NCBI RefSeq assembly: GCF_003751635.1
Contig: NZ_RJVI01000002.1
Location: forward strand, 917,986 to 981,985
Source of the DNA: Inmirania thermothiophila
GTDB lineage: Bacteria > Pseudomonadota > Gammaproteobacteria > DSM-100275
Length of the DNA: 64,000 nt
Reading direction: 5' to 3'
Positions 1,143-16,198 of this stretch are shown one piece after another. The position numbers and the translations under genes are program-made. The stretch's first letter is position 1. Each line of letters begins with the position of its first letter. The notes under the pieces were generated by a model. It was not told the origin of the DNA. It made no database searches and worked only from the letters and a program-made list of their open reading frames with translations.

Positions 1143-1167
1143 AAAAAAAGGCGCCCGCGAGGGCGCC
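1143..1167 (-). terminator. Rho-independent terminator of the P-loop/ABC/hydrolase operon
   Basis: A 7-bp all-GC stem (GGCGCCC / GGGCGCC) closes a 4-nt loop. On the minus strand it is followed by seven U residues (plus-strand A run 1143-1149). It lies 59 nt beyond the stop of the alpha/beta hydrolase gene and so closes the minus-strand unit that begins near 4856. Confidence 0.8.
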
Positions 1168-1225
1168 CAGGGCCAGGAGGAGACGCATCGTCGGCGGCGC
1201 CCTGCCGCCGTCCTGGAGCCTTTTT

Positions 1226-2056
1226 CTACCCGCCGCCCGACGCCGCCGCCGTGATCCGCGTCACATGGCGGCGCGGAGCCACCCCGAGGGCCTCGGCGAG
1301 GGCGTCCACGAGTCCGGCGCGGGCGGCCTCGGCGAAGTCGTGCCCGACCCCCGGAAGCACCCGCAGACGCACCGGGGCGCCGCCGGCCCGCCGCCGGGCC
1401 CTCAGCGCCGCCACCCAGCGCCGGGCCCGCTCGAGCCGGTTGCGGCCGAGGAGGCGGTCGACGGCGGGGTCGGCGTTGAGGCTGACGTCGCGACGGGTGT
1501 CGTCCGCCCCCACCACCACGGTGACGGGCAACCGCAGGAAGCCGGCGAGATCCACTGCGGCGGGCGCGGTCCCCGGCGCGACCCCCAGCGGCCAGGGCAG
1601 GGCCGGATCCGGCAGCGTGTACCAGCCGGCGGCGCCCAGGAGCAGGGACTCGATGCGCCCCGGCCGGAGCATGGCGTAGCGGTGCGCGAACTGCGCCCCG
1701 CCCGAGAACCCGACGAGGACGAAACGGGGGAAGGGCCGCCCGGCGCGCGCCGCGGCGTCGGCCACCACGTCCTCCACCGCCTCGGCGGCCCCGGCGCGCA
1801 GCCGCTGGAAGCCCCGGAACCGCCCCGGCGGCAGCAGCGGCGCCACCACGGCGTAGCCGGCCGCGGCCGCCGCGGGCGCCAGCCGCCGCACGTGCTCGGC
1901 GGCGTTGCGCGAGATCCCGTGCACCGAAACCACCAGCCCCGCCGGCCGCTCCTCCGGGAACCAGGCGTGATAGCGCACGCCCTCCGGGGTGCGCAGCCGC
2001 TGCACCCCCGCGCCCTGGGCAAGACCGGCCACCATCACGAGCACCGCTGCCGTCAT
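1226..2056 (-). CDS. Alpha/beta hydrolase, probably exported
   Basis: 276 aa. A short hydrophobic N-terminus (about residues 1-17, ending AQGA) looks like a signal peptide. The body shows an alpha/beta-hydrolase fold: an oxyanion strand in VVSVHGIS, the nucleophile elbow GFSGG in FVLVGFSGGAQFAHRY, an acidic residue in VVVGADDTRRD and a catalytic His in LPGVGHDF. It resembles PHB-depolymerase/poly-esterase-like or dienelactone-hydrolase-like proteins, but the substrate is unknown. The ATG at 2056 has a GGAGG-type site just upstream. It is the last gene of a three-gene unit, 11 nt after the ABC exporter, and ends at the terminator at 1143-1167. Its apparent export and its pairing with an exporter suggest action on a transported or envelope compound; that is inference. 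Confidence 0.75.
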   Translation of the reverse strand: MTAAVLVMVAGLAQGAGVQRLRTPEGVRYHAWFPEERPAGLVVSVHGISRNAAEHVRRLAPAAAAAGYAVVAPLLPPGRFRGFQRLRAGAAEAVEDVVADAAARAGRPFPRFVLVGFSGGAQFAHRYAMLRPGRIESLLLGAAGWYTLPDPALPWPLGVAPGTAPAAVDLAGFLRLPVTVVVGADDTRRDVSLNADPAVDRLLGRNRLERARRWVAALRARRRAGGAPVRLRVLPGVGHDFAEAARAGLVDALAEALGVAPRRHVTRITAAASGGG

Positions 2057-2067
2057 CGTCCCCCTCC

Positions 2068-3720
2068 TCACCCCTGCGCCCCCGCCACCACCGGCCGCGG
2101 CGTCCACCGCCCCGCCGCCGCCAGCACCTCCGCCGGCCGGCCACGGGCGACCACCCGCCCGGCCTCCAGCAGCCAGACCTCGTCGGCGAGCGCCGCGAGC
2201 TCGCGCCGGTGGGTGGCCAGGAGCACGGTGCACGGGCGCTCGCGCAGGAGCGCCGCCACCGCCTCGATGCCCTCCGCGTCGAGCCCGCCCTCGGGCTCGT
2301 CCAGGAGCAGCACGCGGCAGCCTCCGGCGAGCGCGCGCGCCAGCGCCGCGCGCTGGCGTTCGCCGGCCGAGAGCCCCCGGCCGCCTTCGCCGACCCGACG
2401 CGCCCCGTCGCGGCCCGCGGCGGCGAGGCCCACCCGCGCCGCCAGCCGGCGGTAGGCCCCTTCCCCAACCGCCGGCGCGCGGTAGAGCACGTTGCGCCGC
2501 ACCGTCCCCCGCAGCAGCGGCAGATCCGGCGCCAGCACCGACACCGCCGCGCGCAGGGCGCGCGGCGCCACCTCGGCGACGTCCACCCCGTCCAGCAGGA
2601 CCCGCCCCGCATCCGGCGCCGCCATCCCGTTCACCAGGCCGATCAGCGTGCTCTTGCCGGCGCCGTTGGGCCCGACCAGCGCCACCACGCGCCCCGGCGC
2701 CACGTCGGCCTCCAGCGGAGCGAGGGCGGTGCCCACCCGCACCCCCTCGAAGCGGACGCGGCCCCCCCCCGCGGGCAGCGCGCGCCCGCGGCCGGGCGCC
2801 CGCGCCGGCAGGGCGAGAAAGGCCTCCAGGCGCTCCCGCGCCACCCGCGCGCCCTGCCAGTACTCGTGCACGCGCCCGAGCTCGCGCACCCGGGGCGCAA
2901 GCAGCGCCGCCAGCGTGAGCCCGGCCACCAGGTCCCCTGCCGCGAGCCGTCCCGCCGCCATCTCGGCCCCGCCCACCAGCACCAGCGCCGCCCAGGCGAG
3001 GCCCGCGGTCACCTCCGCCGTCCCGCGCAGCGCCCCCGCGTGTCGCGCCCGCCTCACCATCGCCGCAGCGAGATCGCGGCTGCGCCGGCGCACCCGCGCC
3101 CGCTCGCGCCGCCACTGGCCGAAGGCCTGGATCACCGCGAGCGCCGCCGCCCGCTCCCCCACCTCGGTGGCAAGCCGCGCCCGCGCCCGCCTCGCCGCGC
3201 GGGTCGCGCGCCGAAGCCCCGGACCCAACCGCCACTGCAGGGCGCCCCCCGCAACCAGCACCGCGCCCACCGCCAGGGCCAGGCGGGGGCTGTGCAGGCC
3301 CATCGCCGCCAGCGCCCCGGCGACCACCATCCCCGCCACCACCAGCCGCGCGAGCCCCTGCGTCAGCCACAGGCGGACGGCGCCCAGGTCGTGCACCAGG
3401 CGCAGCACCACGCCGCCGCGGCTCGGCCGCGCCCGCGCCGCCGGGGCTAGGTGGACGAGGTGGCGGAAGAGCCCCTCGCGGGCCGCGACCACGTAGGCCT
3501 GGCCGAGGCGCTCGGCGCCCACGCGCTCCCACGCGCGCATCAGGCCCAGCCCGAGGGCGGCCGCGGCGACGGCGCCGGCCGCCCTCCAGCCGGGACCGGC
3601 GAACGCCTCGCGCACGGCCAGCGCCATCGCCAGCGAGGCCGCGGCCTGCGCCGCGCCGCTGACGGCGAGGCCGGCGAGCAGCCGCCAGCGGCCCCCGCCG
3701 AGAAGGGCGGGCAGGCTCAC
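2068..3720 (-). CDS. ABC exporter half-transporter (membrane domain fused to ATPase)
   Basis: 550 aa. About residues 1-310 form a type-I exporter membrane domain with several hydrophobic helices. The ATPase domain follows: Walker A GPNGAGKST, a signature LSAGERQ in place of the usual LSGGQ, Walker B VLLLDEPEGGLD, and the H-loop His in LLATHRRE. The layout resembles CydC/CydD-like and lipid/peptide exporters, which work as dimers in the inner membrane. Only one half-transporter is present here, so a homodimer or a partner elsewhere is needed. The start is GTG at 3720, overlapping the TGA of the upstream P-loop gene by 4 nt (GTGA), which implies translational coupling. The substrate is unknown; the neighbouring P-loop protein and hydrolase suggest one shared pathway. 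Confidence 0.85.
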   Translation of the reverse strand: MSLPALLGGGRWRLLAGLAVSGAAQAAASLAMALAVREAFAGPGWRAAGAVAAAALGLGLMRAWERVGAERLGQAYVVAAREGLFRHLVHLAPAARARPSRGGVVLRLVHDLGAVRLWLTQGLARLVVAGMVVAGALAAMGLHSPRLALAVGAVLVAGGALQWRLGPGLRRATRAARRARARLATEVGERAAALAVIQAFGQWRRERARVRRRSRDLAAAMVRRARHAGALRGTAEVTAGLAWAALVLVGGAEMAAGRLAAGDLVAGLTLAALLAPRVRELGRVHEYWQGARVARERLEAFLALPARAPGRGRALPAGGGRVRFEGVRVGTALAPLEADVAPGRVVALVGPNGAGKSTLIGLVNGMAAPDAGRVLLDGVDVAEVAPRALRAAVSVLAPDLPLLRGTVRRNVLYRAPAVGEGAYRRLAARVGLAAAGRDGARRVGEGGRGLSAGERQRAALARALAGGCRVLLLDEPEGGLDAEGIEAVAALLRERPCTVLLATHRRELAALADEVWLLEAGRVVARGRPAEVLAAAGRWTPRPVVAGAQG

Positions 3721-4814
3721 GGGTGCGCCCCGGCCGCCGCCGCACGGCCCGCCGCACCGGGCAGCCCGCCCCCGGACGCCGGCCCCGCCCGCCCGGGCGC
3801 CGCCCGCCGCCAGTCGAGACTCCACAGCCCCTCGAGGTCCAGCACCGGCGCCGCGCACGCCGCCTGCGCCTCGCGCACCGCGAGGGGCGAGCGCGTCAGC
3901 GCCCCGGAGATCCCGAGCACCCGCCGCCCGCGAGCGGCGAGCCACTGCGCCCCCGCGACCGCCCCCATGGCGTCGCCGGCGGCGAAGAAGACCGCGTCCA
4001 CACACTCCGCGAAGGCCGTCCCCGTCAGCAGCGCCTCCGTCTCCCGCTGGTAGAGGCCGTCGGCCACCTCGAGGACGACGGCCTCGACACCCCGCGCCGC
4101 GAGCTCCGCCGTCAGCAGCCGCAGCACCTCCTCCACCGCCGCCGGCTCCAGCAGGTAGGTGGAGGCGTGGCCCGCGTCCACGAAGTCCAGCACGTGCTCC
4201 GCGCCGGCGTCCGTCAGGTGCCAGACGTCGCCGCCCGCCCCCGTGCCCGTGATCTTGGCCGCGCCCACCCGCAGGCCGCACGCCCGCATCCCGTGCACGA
4301 TCCCGGCCGCGGTGGTGGTCTTGCCCGCGTTCATGGAGGTCCCCACCACCGCGATGGTGGGCACCCGGGGCGCCACCCGCCGCGCCAGCCGGTAGCGCCG
4401 CAGGTTCAGCACTGCCCCGTCGGCGCCGGCGAGCAGCCCCACCGGCTCCAGCCGCGTCGGCTCCTGCATGCGATCGTGGGCCGAGCGGGCGCGCGCCGCG
4501 ACCCCGCCCGCCGCGACGAGGTCGCACGGCCCCAGGTCCGCCGGCACCACGGCCTCGAACTGATCGGGGGCGTAGCGGTTGCCGTAGGCCACCACCACCT
4601 CGTCCCCCCGGAAGAGACGCGCGCGCCGCCCGTCCGCCAGCTCGATGCGCTTGTGCTGGCCGATGGCCGCCACCCGCGCCAGGACCAGGTCCCCGGCCTG
4701 CGGCCGCCGCCCGTGGACGAGGCCGCACACCCCGCTCCAGTCCACCCGCCGCGTGGTGTACGCCTTCTTCGCCCGCCGCAGCCGCGTCCCGCCGATCCGC
4801 TCGATGCCGTTCAT
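3717..4814 (-). CDS. Unrecognised P-loop NTPase of the dethiobiotin-synthetase/CobQ-like type
   Basis: 365 aa. The N-terminal half (about 1-150) holds a strand-rich stretch (VLARVAAIGQHKRIEL, LFRGDEVVVAYGNRYAPDQF) of unknown function. Residues about 152-300 form a P-loop domain with Walker A GTSMNAGKT (158-166), then AAKITGTGAGGD and VVLEVADGLYQRET, a pattern like SIMIBI-class ATP-dependent ligases (BioD/CobQ/MobB) or DUF1611-type proteins. About 35 Ala/Gly/Pro-rich residues close the chain. I do not recognise the family's function. The start is set at ATG 4814, with GGAGG 7 nt upstream; an in-frame ATG at 4850 would lie inside the operator. It is first in an operon with an ABC exporter (4-nt overlap) and a hydrolase. 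A substrate-activating or ligating step before export is possible but unproven. Confidence 0.7.
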   Translation of the reverse strand: MNGIERIGGTRLRRAKKAYTTRRVDWSGVCGLVHGRRPQAGDLVLARVAAIGQHKRIELADGRRARLFRGDEVVVAYGNRYAPDQFEAVVPADLGPCDLVAAGGVAARARSAHDRMQEPTRLEPVGLLAGADGAVLNLRRYRLARRVAPRVPTIAVVGTSMNAGKTTTAAGIVHGMRACGLRVGAAKITGTGAGGDVWHLTDAGAEHVLDFVDAGHASTYLLEPAAVEEVLRLLTAELAARGVEAVVLEVADGLYQRETEALLTGTAFAECVDAVFFAAGDAMGAVAGAQWLAARGRRVLGISGALTRSPLAVREAQAACAAPVLDLEGLWSLDWRRAAPGRAGPASGGGLPGAAGRAAAAGAHP

Positions 4815-4832
4815 GTCCGGTCCTCCGCGTAT

Positions 4833-4860
4833 GTGGGATAAATTTCCCACTTCTTGGGAT
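4833..4860. promoter_or_regulatory. Phased operator: three TGGGA/TCCCA half-sites
   Basis: On the plus strand the half-sites are TGGGA (4834-4838), TCCCA (4845-4849) and TGGGA (4855-4859). Their centres are 11 and 10 bp apart, one DNA turn each, so all lie on one helical face. The first two form the inverted repeat GTGGGATAAATTTCCCAC. The array covers the predicted transcription start (about 4856) and the first 20-odd transcribed bases, as expected for a repressor site. No regulator gene lies beside it. Confidence 0.5.
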
Positions 4861-4862
4861 CG

Positions 4863-4891
4863 AGCCTAGACCCCCCGGGGAAGTCCGTCAA
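4863..4891 (-). promoter_or_regulatory. Sigma-70-type promoter of the P-loop/ABC/hydrolase operon
   Basis: On the minus strand, TTGACG (4891-4886) and TAGGCT (4868-4863) are separated by 17 nt. The -35 is near consensus and the -10 is weak (T, A and final T match). The predicted start near 4856 falls on the third TGGGA half-site, and the ribosome-binding site and ATG lie 30-42 nt further on. Confidence 0.5.
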
Positions 4892-4902
4892 GGGCGGTCA
4901 GG

Positions 4903-4934
4903 AAAAAAGACGCCGCCCCCGCAGGGGCGGCGTC
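4903..4934 (-). terminator. Rho-independent terminator of purL
   Basis: A perfect 11-bp stem (GACGCCGCCCC / GGGGCGGCGTC) with a 4-nt loop is followed on the minus strand by six U residues (plus-strand A run 4903-4908). It lies 18 nt after the purL stop and separates purL from the promoter of the next minus-strand operon. Confidence 0.9.
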
Positions 4935-4952
4935 GTCACGGGCGGCGGCCGC

Positions 4953-7900
4953 TCAGCCGAGCCAGGCGCGGGCGTTGCGGAAGAGCCGCAGCCACGGCCC
5001 CTCGTCGCCCCACTCGGGCGGGTGCCAGGCGTGCTGCACGGTGCGGAAGACGCGCTCCGGATGCGGCATCATGATGGTGACCCGCCCGTCGGGCGTGGTC
5101 AGGCCGGTGATGCCCCCGGGCGAGCCGTTGGGGTTGTCGGGGTAGCGCTCGGCGATGCGGCCGTGGCCGTCCACGTAGCGCAGGGCGACCATCCCTGCCC
5201 GCTCGGCGGGCGCAGGCCCCTCGGCGCCGAAGTCGGCGCGGCCCTCGCCGTGGGCCACCGCCACGGGCAGGCGCGACCCCGCCATGCCGGCGAGGAGGAT
5301 GGAGGGCGAGTCGGTGACCTCCACCAGCGACAGCCTCGCCTCGAACTGCTCGGAGCGGTTGCGCACGAAGCGCGGCCAGGGCGCCGCGCCGGGGATGAGC
5401 TCCTTGAGGGCGGCGAGCATCTGGCAGCCGTTGCAGACCCCGAGGGTGAAGGTGTCGTCGCGGGCGAAGAAGGCGGCGAAGGCCTCCCGCGCCCGCGGGT
5501 GGAAGAGGATGGACTTGGCCCAGCCCTGGCCGGCGCCGAGGACGTCGCCGAAGGAGAAGCCGCCGCAGGCGGCCAGCCCGTGGAACCCCGCGAGGTCCTC
5601 CCGCCCGGCGAGGATGTCGCTCATGTGCACGTCCACGGCCTCGAAGCCCGCGGCGTGGAAGGCGGCCGCCATCTCCACCTGCCCGTTGACCCCCTGCTCG
5701 CGCAGGATCGCCACCCGCGGCCGCGCCCCCGTGGCGACGAAGGGCGCGGCGACGTCCTCGGCGGGATCGAAGGTGAGCCGGGGACGAAGGCCCGGCGCCT
5801 GGGGGTCGGTGGCGGCGGCGTACTCCTCGTCGGCGCAGGCCGGGTCGTCGCGGAGCCGCGCCATGCGGTGGCTCGTGTCCCACCACGCCCGGAGCCACGC
5901 GCCGAGCTCGCCCGCCAGGAGCTCCCGCCGGCCGCGGCGGAAGCGGATCACGGGCTCGTCCACGACCCGGCCGACCACGTGGGTGCAGCGGCCGAGGCCG
6001 GCGTCGGCGAACCACTTGAGCACGGTGTCGGTGTCGCAGTGGCGCACCTGCAGCACCGCCCCCAGCTCCTCGGCGAAGAGCGCCGCCACGGGGTCGTCGC
6101 CGAGATCGTCGAGGGCCACCTCGACCCCGGCGCGGCCGGCGAAGGCCATCTCGCACACGGTGGCGAAGAGGCCGCCGTCGCTGCGGTCGTGGTAGGCGAG
6201 GAGCAGCCCCTCGGCGTTGAGCTCCTGCACCGCGCGGAAGAAGGCGCGCAGCCCCTCGGGGTCCTCGAGGTCCGGCGCCCGGCGCCCGAGCTGCCGGTAG
6301 ACCTGCGCCAGCGCCGAACCGCCCAGGCGGTTGCGCCCCCGGCCGAGGTCCACGAGGACGAGGTCGGTGTCGCCGCAATCGGTGCGAAGCTGCGGCGTGA
6401 GCGTGCGCCGCACGTCCCGAACCGGCGCAAACGCCGTCACCACCAGCGACAGCGGCGCGGTCATCTCGCGCCGCTCGCCCCCCGCCTCCCACACCGTCTT
6501 CATGGAGAGGGAGTCCTTGCCCACCGGGATCGCCACGCCGAGGCGCGGGCAGAGCTCCATCCCCACCGTGCGCACCGCCTCGTAGAGGGCCGCGTCCTCG
6601 CCCTCGTGGCCGGCCGCCGCCATCCAGTTGGCCGACAGCCGCACGCGGCCGAGGTCGCCGACGTCGGCGGCGGCGATGTTGGTCAGGGCCTCGCCCACCG
6701 CCATGCGCACCGAGGCCGCGGCATCGAGCAGGGCCACGGGCGGGCGCTCGCCCAAGGCCATGGCCTCGCCGGCATGGCCGTGGAAGTCCGACAGGGTGAC
6801 CGCGACGTCGGCCACCGGCACCTGCCACGGCCCCACCATCTGGTCGCGCGCCACCAGCCCGCCGACGCTGCGGTCGCCGATGGTGACGAGGAAGGACTTG
6901 CAGGCCACCGCGGGCAGGCGCAGGACGCGCTCGGCGGCCTCGCGCAGGTCGATGCCGGCGGTGTCGAAGGCGGGCTTGGGCCTGCTCAGGCGGCGCACGT
7001 CGCGGGTCATGCGCGGCGGCTTGCCCAGCAGCATCTCCAGCGGCATGTCCACCACCACCTCGCCGCTGCGGCTGTCCTCCACCACCAGGCGCTCGTCGGC
7101 GGTGGCGCGGCCGATGACGGCGAAGGGGCAGCGCTCGCGCACGCAGAGGGCGGCCAGCGCCTCCACGCGGTCGGCGGGCACGGCGAGGACGAAGCGTTCC
7201 TGGGCCTCGTTGCACCAGATCTCCCGCGGCGACATGCCGGGATCGTCGCTGGGCACCGCGGCGAGGTCGATGCGCCCGCCTCGCCCGCCCCCGTGCAGCA
7301 GCTCCGGGACCGCGTTGGAGAGGCCGCCGGCGCCGACGTCGTGGATGGCGAGGATGGGGTTGGCCTCGCCCATGGCCCAGCAGCGGTCGATGACCTCCTG
7401 GGCGCGGCGCTGCATCTCGGGGTTGCCGCGCTGGACCGAGGCGTAGTCCAGCACCTCGTCGCTCTCGCCGCTGGCCACCGACGAGGCGGCGCCGCCGCCG
7501 AGGCCGATCAGCATCGCCGGCCCCCCCAGCACCACGATGGCCGCGTCCACCGGCAGCGGGCGCTTCTCCACGTGGGGCGCGCGGATGTTGCCGAGGCCGC
7601 CGGCGATCATGATGGGCTTGTGGTAGCCGCGAAGCTCCGGCCCCCGCGGTCCCGGCACGCGGGCCTCGTAGGTGCGGAAGAAGCCGGTGAGGGCGGGACG
7701 CCCGAACTCGTTGCCGAAGGCGGCGGCGCCGATGGGGCCCTCGAGCATGATCTCCAGCGCCGAGGCGATCCGTCCGGGACGGCCGAAGTCCTCCTCCCAC
7801 GGCTGCTCGAAGCCCGGGATGCGCAGGTTGGAGACGGCGAAGCCCACCAGCCCCGCCTTGGAACGGGCCCCGCGCCCGGTGGCGGCCTCGTCGCGGATCT

Positions 7901-8849
7901 CGCCGCCGGCCCCGGTGGCCGCCCCGGGGAAGGGCGAGATGGCGGTGGGGTGGTTGTGGGTCTCCACCTTGGCGACGATGTGCACGGGCTCCTCGTGCTC
8001 GCGCCAGACGCCGTCGGCGTCGGGGAAGAAGCGCCGCGCGGTCCAGCCCTCGAGGACGGCGGCGTTGTCCCGGTAGGCCGAGAGCACCCCCTCCGGGCTC
8101 GCCCGGTGGGTGTTGCGGATCATCTCGAAGAGGCTGTGGGGCTGGGGCCGACCGTCGAGGATCCAGCGCGCGTTGAAGATCTTGTGGCGGCAGTGCTCGG
8201 AGTTCGCCTGCGCGAACATCATGAGCTCGGCGTCGGTGGGGTTGCGCCCGAGGGCCTGGAAGCCCTCCACGAGGTAGTCGATCTCGTCGTCGGAGAGGGC
8301 AAGCCCCAGGGCGCGGTCGGCCTCCTCGAGGGCGGCGCGGCCGCGGCCGAGGACGTCGACGCGGGCCAGCGGTCCCGGCTCGGCCTCGGCGAAGAGCAGC
8401 GCCTCGACGTCCTCGTCGGCGCCGAGCAGGCTCTCGGTCATGCGGTCGTGCAGAAGCGGCGCGAGCGCCGCCACCTCCCCCTCGGCAAGCGGAGCGCCGT
8501 CCGCGGTGACGAGGAAGTAGGCCGTGCCGCGCTCGATCCGAAGGACGGCGTCGAGGCCGCAGTTGCGCGCGATCTCGGTGGCCTTGGTGGACCAGGGGGA
8601 GATGGTGCCGATGCGCGGCAGCGCGAGCAGCCGCTCCCCCTCGGGCCGCACCGCCGGGGGCGGCTCCCCGTAGTCGAGCAGGCGCGCAAGGCGCGCCTGC
8701 TCCGCGCCATCCAGCCGCCTCGCCGTGCGCACGAAGTGGCGGTACTCGGCGGCCAGCGCCCGGATGCGCGGCACCCGGGCGCGCAGCCGCTCGAGCAGGC
8801 GGTCTCTGCGGAAGGGGGAAAGGGCGACCGGCCCTCTGAGCTCCAGCAT
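4953..8849 (-). CDS. purL: Phosphoribosylformylglycinamidine synthase, large single-chain form
   Basis: 1298 aa, the size of the proteobacterial single-chain enzyme. It converts FGAR to FGAM with ATP and glutamine, the fourth step of purine synthesis, in the cytoplasm. Seen: the N-terminal PurS-like region, the linker ([39 protein letters not shown]), two AIR-synthase-like halves ([38 protein letters not shown]), and a C-terminal class-I glutaminase domain. The glutaminase has a nucleophile Cys in [14 protein letters not shown] and a catalytic His in MPHPERVFR. The ATG at 8849 has only a weak GAGCGAGG site. A TATCAT -10-like hexamer lies at 8882-8887 on the minus strand, about 33 nt upstream, so it may have its own promoter. 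Confidence 0.98.
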
Positions 8850-11774: not shown

Positions 11775-13622
<1,848 letters not shown>

Positions 13623-13631
13623 GGGCGGGCG

Positions 13632-14000
13632 TCAGCTCTCGGTCTTGGCGCCCTTCTTCTCGCCCTTGCCGCGCCCCTGCCGCAGCGTCCCCTTGGGGAG
13701 CAGCGCCGCGATCATCGGCCGCTGCACCTGGACCTCGACCCCGTCGGCCACCTGCAGGGTGACGAACTGGTCGTCCAGCGCCGTGATGCGGCCGGCGAGC
13801 CCGCCGTTGGTCACCACCTCGTCGCCCTTGGCCAGGGCCTCGATCATCTTGCGGTGCTCCTTGGCCCGCTTGGACTGGGGACGGATGAGGAGGAAGTAGA
13901 AGACCACGAACAGGATCACCAGCGGGAGCATCCCCAGGAGGGGATCAGCCTTCGGCGCCGCGCCCTCCTGGGCGAGGGCATCGGAGATGAGGAAGTTCAT
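13632..14000 (-). CDS. yajC: Sec translocon accessory subunit YajC
   Basis: 122 aa. A single membrane helix (about 23-42, MLPLVILFVVFYFLLIRPQSKRAKEH) is followed by a small cytoplasmic domain (LAKGDEVVTNGGLAGRITAL). The basic tail (GKGEKKGAKTES) is typical. It associates with SecD and SecF in the inner membrane. AGAAAGGA lies a short distance upstream of the ATG. A 70-nt gap separates it from the upstream tgt; I see no terminator there, so read-through from queA-tgt is likely. Confidence 0.95.
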   Translation of the reverse strand: MNFLISDALAQEGAAPKADPLLGMLPLVILFVVFYFLLIRPQSKRAKEHRKMIEALAKGDEVVTNGGLAGRITALDDQFVTLQVADGVEVQVQRPMIAALLPKGTLRQGRGKGEKKGAKTES

Positions 14001-14070
14001 CGGAGACCGTCCTTTCTGGTTGTGGCGTTGGGTGTCCGGGCCGCGTCCGCGGCGCGCGTATTATGGCACA

Positions 14071-16198
<2,128 letters not shown>

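Follow-up and report, generated by a model that had tools for sequence, protein, structure and literature searches.

A conserved operon of a P-loop protein, an ABC half-exporter and a PahZ1/LpqC-type hydrolase that may make, move and break a small acidic amide

The window analyzed here is a stretch of 64,000 nucleotides from Inmirania thermothiophila. Three of its minus-strand genes stand alone between two intrinsic terminators and form one unit (Table 1). They encode a P-loop protein, an ABC half-exporter and an alpha/beta hydrolase. The GTG start of the ABC gene overlaps the stop codon of the P-loop gene by 4 nt, and the hydrolase gene starts 11 nt past the ABC stop. An alternative GTG start of the hydrolase at position 2071 would add the residues MRRGT and result in a 4-nt overlap with the ABC stop. 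The gene layout and the terminator behind the hydrolase bear out the single transcription unit of three coupled genes with a strong terminator that was described in the first-pass annotation of this DNA. A promoter had been proposed as well. The two hexamers with their 17-bp spacing are present, but the -10-like element departs from the consensus at half of its positions, and the pair was absent from the output of a consensus promoter scan. The phased operator over the start site was seen as a palindrome, which is extended by a third half-site (TCCCA) to position 4859. No gene for a regulator of this palindrome lies in the operon. The palindrome occurs as a single copy in the 2.6-Mb genome. 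Since it is present only at the operon, the operator defines no regulon and gives no functional lead.

Table 1. Positions in the window of the three genes and of the signals around them
Feature	Coordinates	Strand	Description
P-loop protein, gene 1	3717..4814	-	365 aa; ATG start, GGAGGA upstream
ABC half-exporter, gene 2	2068..3720	-	550 aa; GTG start; TM domain and NBD
Alpha/beta hydrolase, gene 3	1226..2056	-	276 aa; PahZ1/LpqC family
-35-like hexamer TTGACG	4886..4891	-	read from sequence; 17 bp to -10-like hexamer
-10-like hexamer TAGGCT	4863..4868	-	read from sequence; 3/6 consensus match
Palindrome GTGGGA-N6-TCCCAC	4834..4851	-	over expected start site
Operon terminator, intrinsic	1149..1168	-	8-bp stem, T run
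Terminator of upstream purL-like gene (4953-8849), intrinsic	4909..4934	-	5' boundary of operon

The P-loop protein carries the Walker A motif GTSMNAGKTTT and consists of an N-terminal beta-rich domain (about residues 1-145) followed by a SIMIBI/BioD-like P-loop domain. Scanning against Pfam and NCBIfam gave only sub-threshold matches to P-loop families, with MobB and CbiA among the best, and did not identify the protein with a well-studied enzyme. The AlphaFold model was confident (mean pLDDT 93.6). In a Foldseek search with this model only the P-loop half was matched, to SRP GTPases and BioD, and no solved structure spanning the whole protein was found. These results agree with the BioD/CobQ-like fold and the new N-terminal domain that had been read from the sequence; the N-terminal domain is undescribed.

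With the P-loop domains of BioD, MobB and CobB/CobQ (SIMIBI) the protein has the Walker A motif in common. A lysine 22 residues past the P-loop lysine aligns with a lysine of BioD, and the aspartate that follows is also common to both. In contrast to these enzymes, gene 1 encodes an extra N-terminal domain with an RYAPDQFEA motif, and its neighbourhood is unrelated to biotin, molybdenum or cobalamin. Identity with BioD was rejected, as TIGR00347 reached 11.7 bits against a cut-off of 83.3, and no bio genes were recognized among the recurrent neighbours of the operon. MobB and CobB were discarded since all matches were sub-threshold. DUF1611 (PF07755), to which DgcN, a D-glutamate N-acetyltransferase, belongs, was considered too. 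The P-loop region is common to both families, and some homologues of gene 1 are annotated as 'DUF1611 domain-containing'. However, PF07755 matched with 21.4 bits over 42 residues only (gathering cut-off 25 bits), the EGQGS and TGQTGI motifs of aligned DUF1611 proteins are missing from the P-loop protein, and a profile comparison with hhalign gave a probability of 2.5% and revealed no homology over the full length. The annotated homologues of gene 1 on plasmids bear no other names than DUF1611, dethiobiotin synthase, transposase or hypothetical protein. The database label 'DUF1611' is misleading for this family. A literature search on DUF1611 yielded nothing relevant to the operon, and the papers found on DgcN did not describe its mechanism.

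The second gene encodes one chain with matches to PF00664 (59.3 bits) and PF00005 (91.4 bits). The motifs GPNGAGKST, LSAGERQR and LLLDEP and an H-loop were read, and Walker A and B are intact. The protein is thus a half-transporter of the type IV ABC exporters, and the half-exporter with an LSAGE signature named in the first-pass annotation was recovered. Domain order and NBD motifs are common to CydDC and MsbA-type exporters; gene 2, in contrast, scored far below their curated cut-offs. The operon family also differs from them in its signature LSxG[QE], where x is not G in most members, and its NBD is degenerate in some lineages. Walker A is absent from 8-9 of 51 ABC homologues. At eight loci (L013, L035, L038, L051, L052, L067, L074 and L077) an ABC protein that lacks Walker A and has largely lost the other ATPase motifs still lies beside the P-loop gene. 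At five others (L015, L018, L021, L022 and L069) an MFS carrier takes the place of the ABC exporter and follows the P-loop and hydrolase genes. ATP-driven export is therefore not universal, because the ABC ATPase is degenerate or replaced by an MFS carrier in several lineages. Export is the default reading of the transport direction for such a fold.

The third gene was assigned to the PahZ1/LpqC family, in agreement with the alpha/beta hydrolase named earlier. Searching the PDB with a profile of the hydrolase family returned PahZ1 of Pedobacter KP-2 (5e-41), LpqC (1e-37) and PahZ1 of Sphingomonas KT-1 (8e-36), far ahead of all other matches. The model of gene 3 was confident (pLDDT 89.7), and a fold search returned the same two PahZ1 proteins and LpqC. 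The triad S118, D186 and H239 is invariant or nearly so among homologues, and an oxyanion HG is present. The triad and the QF.HR and GWYT.PD motifs are common to PahZ1 and LpqC, although PahZ1 is only 23-25% identical to gene 3. The amide bonds that link beta-Asp units are the target of PahZ1 of KP-2 (PMC4456602). Gene 3 might cleave amides, too; this is not certain, as the PahZ1/LpqC relatives include esterases. A hydrophobic stretch at the N-terminus is plausibly a signal peptide, as had been claimed, but a clear one is found in only about 9-14 of 48 homologues. Since most homologues lack it, a hydrolase outside the cytoplasm does not hold as a general feature.

Among GTDB species genomes, 147 relatives of gene 1 were confirmed; 80 of these, at 44-62% identity, were retained. 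They come from alpha-, beta- and gammaproteobacteria and from a small number of records that bear the labels Chloroflexia, Acidobacteriota, Actinomycetota and Cyanobacteria; several of the genomes are MAGs. The gene set was counted at 60 loci whose downstream flank measured 5 kb or more. An ABC gene follows the P-loop gene in 47/60 and an MFS gene in five others, never both. The hydrolase lies within 5 kb in 43/60 and is missing from 17/60, and an outer-membrane porin (PF07396/PF13609) was found in 32/60. Copies on Rhodobacterales plasmids have the same gene set in a different order. The cassette thus recurs far beyond this genome, as anticipated for a conserved P-loop/ABC/hydrolase grouping, and the three genes almost certainly constitute a conserved unit. 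This recurring gene set appears to be undescribed so far. It is also rare, with three operon-type cases, the window's own included, in a sample of 398 genomes of the phylum.

Genes for Asp/Asn beta-hydroxylases join some versions of the operon, and two-component and ECF-sigma genes adjoin it in many loci; the two-component and Asp-rich neighbours were annotated in part only. In alphaproteobacteria and in one record labelled Chromatiales, secreted subtilases with long Asp-rich N-termini and ECF sigma/anti-sigma-like genes adjoin the operon; loci with such subtilases are L030, L037, L040, L042, L065, L078, L085 and others. One chromosome (L133, genome G518) carries two divergent P-loop/hydrolase pairs within about 10 kb (4057-6668 and 12163-14233), with no ABC match between P-loop gene and hydrolase.

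Profile comparison revealed two full-length sister groups of the gene 1 family, one in arginine operons and one beside M20 deacylase-like genes. Homology of the operon clade to the arginine clade extends over the full length (E 2e-34 over 315 columns), with an identity of about 30%. K165, K187, D196, D202 and E249 are among the residues that never vary within the operon family and recur at the corresponding positions of the arginine clade. In the tree the three P-loop groups separate with supports of 100/99, 98/91 and 100/100, and the operon family is one clade (100/99). The arginine clade differs from that of the window in its operon setting. Both types coexist in single genomes, for example G459, G473, G507 and G518. 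The window's genome encodes its own ArgA and ArgJ, and the operon contains no arg genes. Thus the P-loop protein of the window, which lies in a separate clade and not in an arg operon, is not the arginine enzyme. Members of the third clade directly adjoin an M20 deacylase-like gene (glutamate carboxypeptidase/DapE-like; L098, L101, L140, L141 and L142). A very divergent relative on a long branch is encoded on a Priestia megaterium plasmid (L089, 7899-8960). Its cluster contains a PEP-mutase-like gene, two ATP-grasp ligases, an M20 amidohydrolase and an ornithine carbamoyltransferase, and is likely a phosphonate peptide cluster.

The arginine clade was surveyed in 78 sampled genomes of the order of genome G017. 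The P-loop gene is present in 48 of them, and in 47 argB lies downstream of it, 3.3-3.8 kb away and in the same orientation. Nine loci were inspected, eight from this order (L100, L135-L139, L143 and L144) and one from another (L099). In all of them argC, argD, a carbamoyltransferase gene, argB and argH accompany the P-loop gene. The order in this clade is P-loop-argC-argD-carbamoyltransferase-argB-argH with argR nearby, so that the P-loop gene stands where N-acylglutamate synthase would be expected; the order is different in L099. Within the 78 genomes no ArgJ was found (0/78), nor any ArgA above the cut-off. The 48 genomes with the P-loop gene have a stand-alone ArgB, and 17 without an arginine-type P-loop gene have a longer, divergent ArgB that is NAGS/K-like; there were no exceptions (48/0/0/17). 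All four NAGS/K-like ArgB proteins that were read contain the LDKF and WRxR motifs, which are of the type known from bifunctional NAGS/K (PMC3236213). The Fisher value of the split is 5e-16, inflated by shared ancestry; the split belongs to a single order, with few independent events behind it. Outside this order, genomes G040 and G319 have the P-loop gene beside arg genes, with no ArgJ and no full ArgA. A short GNAT-only NAGS may still be encoded in genomes with the arginine-type P-loop gene.

Carbamoyltransferases for acetylornithine and for succinylornithine can be told apart by their residues 92, 185 and 302 (PMC4581275). At these positions the carbamoyltransferases of 9/9 P-loop genomes have A or P, P, and V, A or E, and those of 8/8 NAGS/K genomes have E, N, and K (seven) or Q (one). 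Succinyl-type residues are thus present in P-loop genomes in 9/9 at 92 and 185 and in 7/9 at 302, versus 0/8 in NAGS/K genomes. An arg-operon location, the lack of ArgA and ArgJ and succinyl-type carbamoyltransferase residues were found together in the sister clade only. Based on these features and on the mutual exclusion with NAGS/K, the arginine clade is best read as a putative N-succinylglutamate synthase. A succinylated arginine pathway in Pseudomonadota is probable. Such a synthesis is described for Bacteroidetes, with BT3761 as first enzyme (GapMind, PMC7311316); in the titles and abstracts covered, no such route in Proteobacteria was found.

BioD acts via ATP activation. The catalytic-looking residues common to the clades and the lysine aligned with BioD suggest that the enzyme of the window would form an amide on an amine, and the P-loop protein is probably an amide-forming enzyme. 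It would join a dicarboxylic acyl group, succinyl or beta-aspartyl, to an amino-acid amine, most simply by activating the carboxylate with ATP as in BioD. The order of the genes, their families, their recurrent linkage and the kinship of the P-loop protein to the arginine clade over its full length are direct results; the use of ATP as against CoA, the substrate, the acyl group, the reaction type and the transport direction we infer. Given an identity of only about 30% between the two clades, both the acceptor and the acyl donor may differ. By chemical reasoning, the beta-Asp bond is an aminosuccinyl-amine link and close to an N-succinyl amide, so that synthase and hydrolase would agree. A succinyl or beta-aspartyl amide as the product is nevertheless a tentative assignment, to which we give somewhat under an even chance. 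The half-exporter would carry the product across the inner membrane as a homodimer; related operons can use an MFS carrier instead, and a porin of the OprO/P type or another porin could provide the outer-membrane route. The PahZ1/LpqC-type serine hydrolase would then cleave a bond of this type. If its N-terminus is a signal peptide, this would happen in the periplasm here; if not, the hydrolase would stay in the cytoplasm and serve in recycling or limiting the product. The whole model, a small acidic amide that the operon would synthesize, export and cleave, is possible, though we would not call it probable.

Four other explanations were weighed, and each appears unlikely to us. The P-loop enzyme might polymerize aspartate via beta-amide bonds, with the exporter secreting a polyanion that the hydrolase trims, and this polyanion would be what PahZ1-like enzymes act on in nature. 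The homology to PahZ1, with its beta-Asp specificity (PMC4456602), the Asp/Asn beta-hydroxylase genes adjoining the operon and the Asp-rich subtilases nearby in alphaproteobacteria are in line with this. However, no polymerase-type domain was seen, the arginine clade would make a single amide on glutamate and no polymer, and Asp-rich proteins carry alpha-linked, not beta-linked, aspartate; we give this oligomer pathway a low probability. A small polycarboxylate chelator, from which the hydrolase frees the metal like siderophore esterases, is just as improbable. The grouping of an alpha/beta hydrolase with an exporter and a porin would suit such a metallophore, as would the two-component and ECF-sigma neighbours in many loci, but neither a TonB-dependent receptor nor an NIS synthetase was among the annotated recurrent neighbours and no metal-regulator site was found.

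Equally, there is little probability that the operon serves in detoxification or resistance, with a toxin modified by the P-loop enzyme, expelled by the exporter and broken down by the hydrolase. The recurrent porin and hydrolase are atypical of resistance cassettes, and library scans gave no known resistance modifier above the cut-off, even though the patchy spread among the 398 genomes, the plasmid copies and the partial exchange of the exporter for MFS would fit. Finally, the sub-threshold MobB and CbiA matches and the fold matches to SRP GTPases could point to a regulatory or cofactor-insertion NTPase (MobB/MeaB-like) that serves the exporter or the hydrolase without forming any product itself. 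Such an adaptor would not replace an enzyme of the arginine pathway, as the sister clade appears to do, and the operon is devoid of a cofactor enzyme, so that we regard this reading as improbable, too.

Returning to the acidic amide, the wider proposal covers the whole new P-loop family, which would form N-succinyl-type or beta-aspartyl amides on amino acids. The arginine clade would be a non-homologous N-succinylglutamate synthase of a proteobacterial arginine pathway that runs via succinylated intermediates, and the clade of the window would make an exported amide and have its own PahZ1-type amidase. We hold this more tentatively still than the model of the single operon. It suggests a natural role for the PahZ1-type hydrolase family, which is known so far from the degradation of a synthetic polymer. 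A gene set with the misleading names 'DUF1611' and 'dethiobiotin synthase' would thereby gain a named reaction, and the sister clade points to an unrecognized enzyme for the first step in making arginine, as well as to a succinylated arginine route outside Bacteroidetes.
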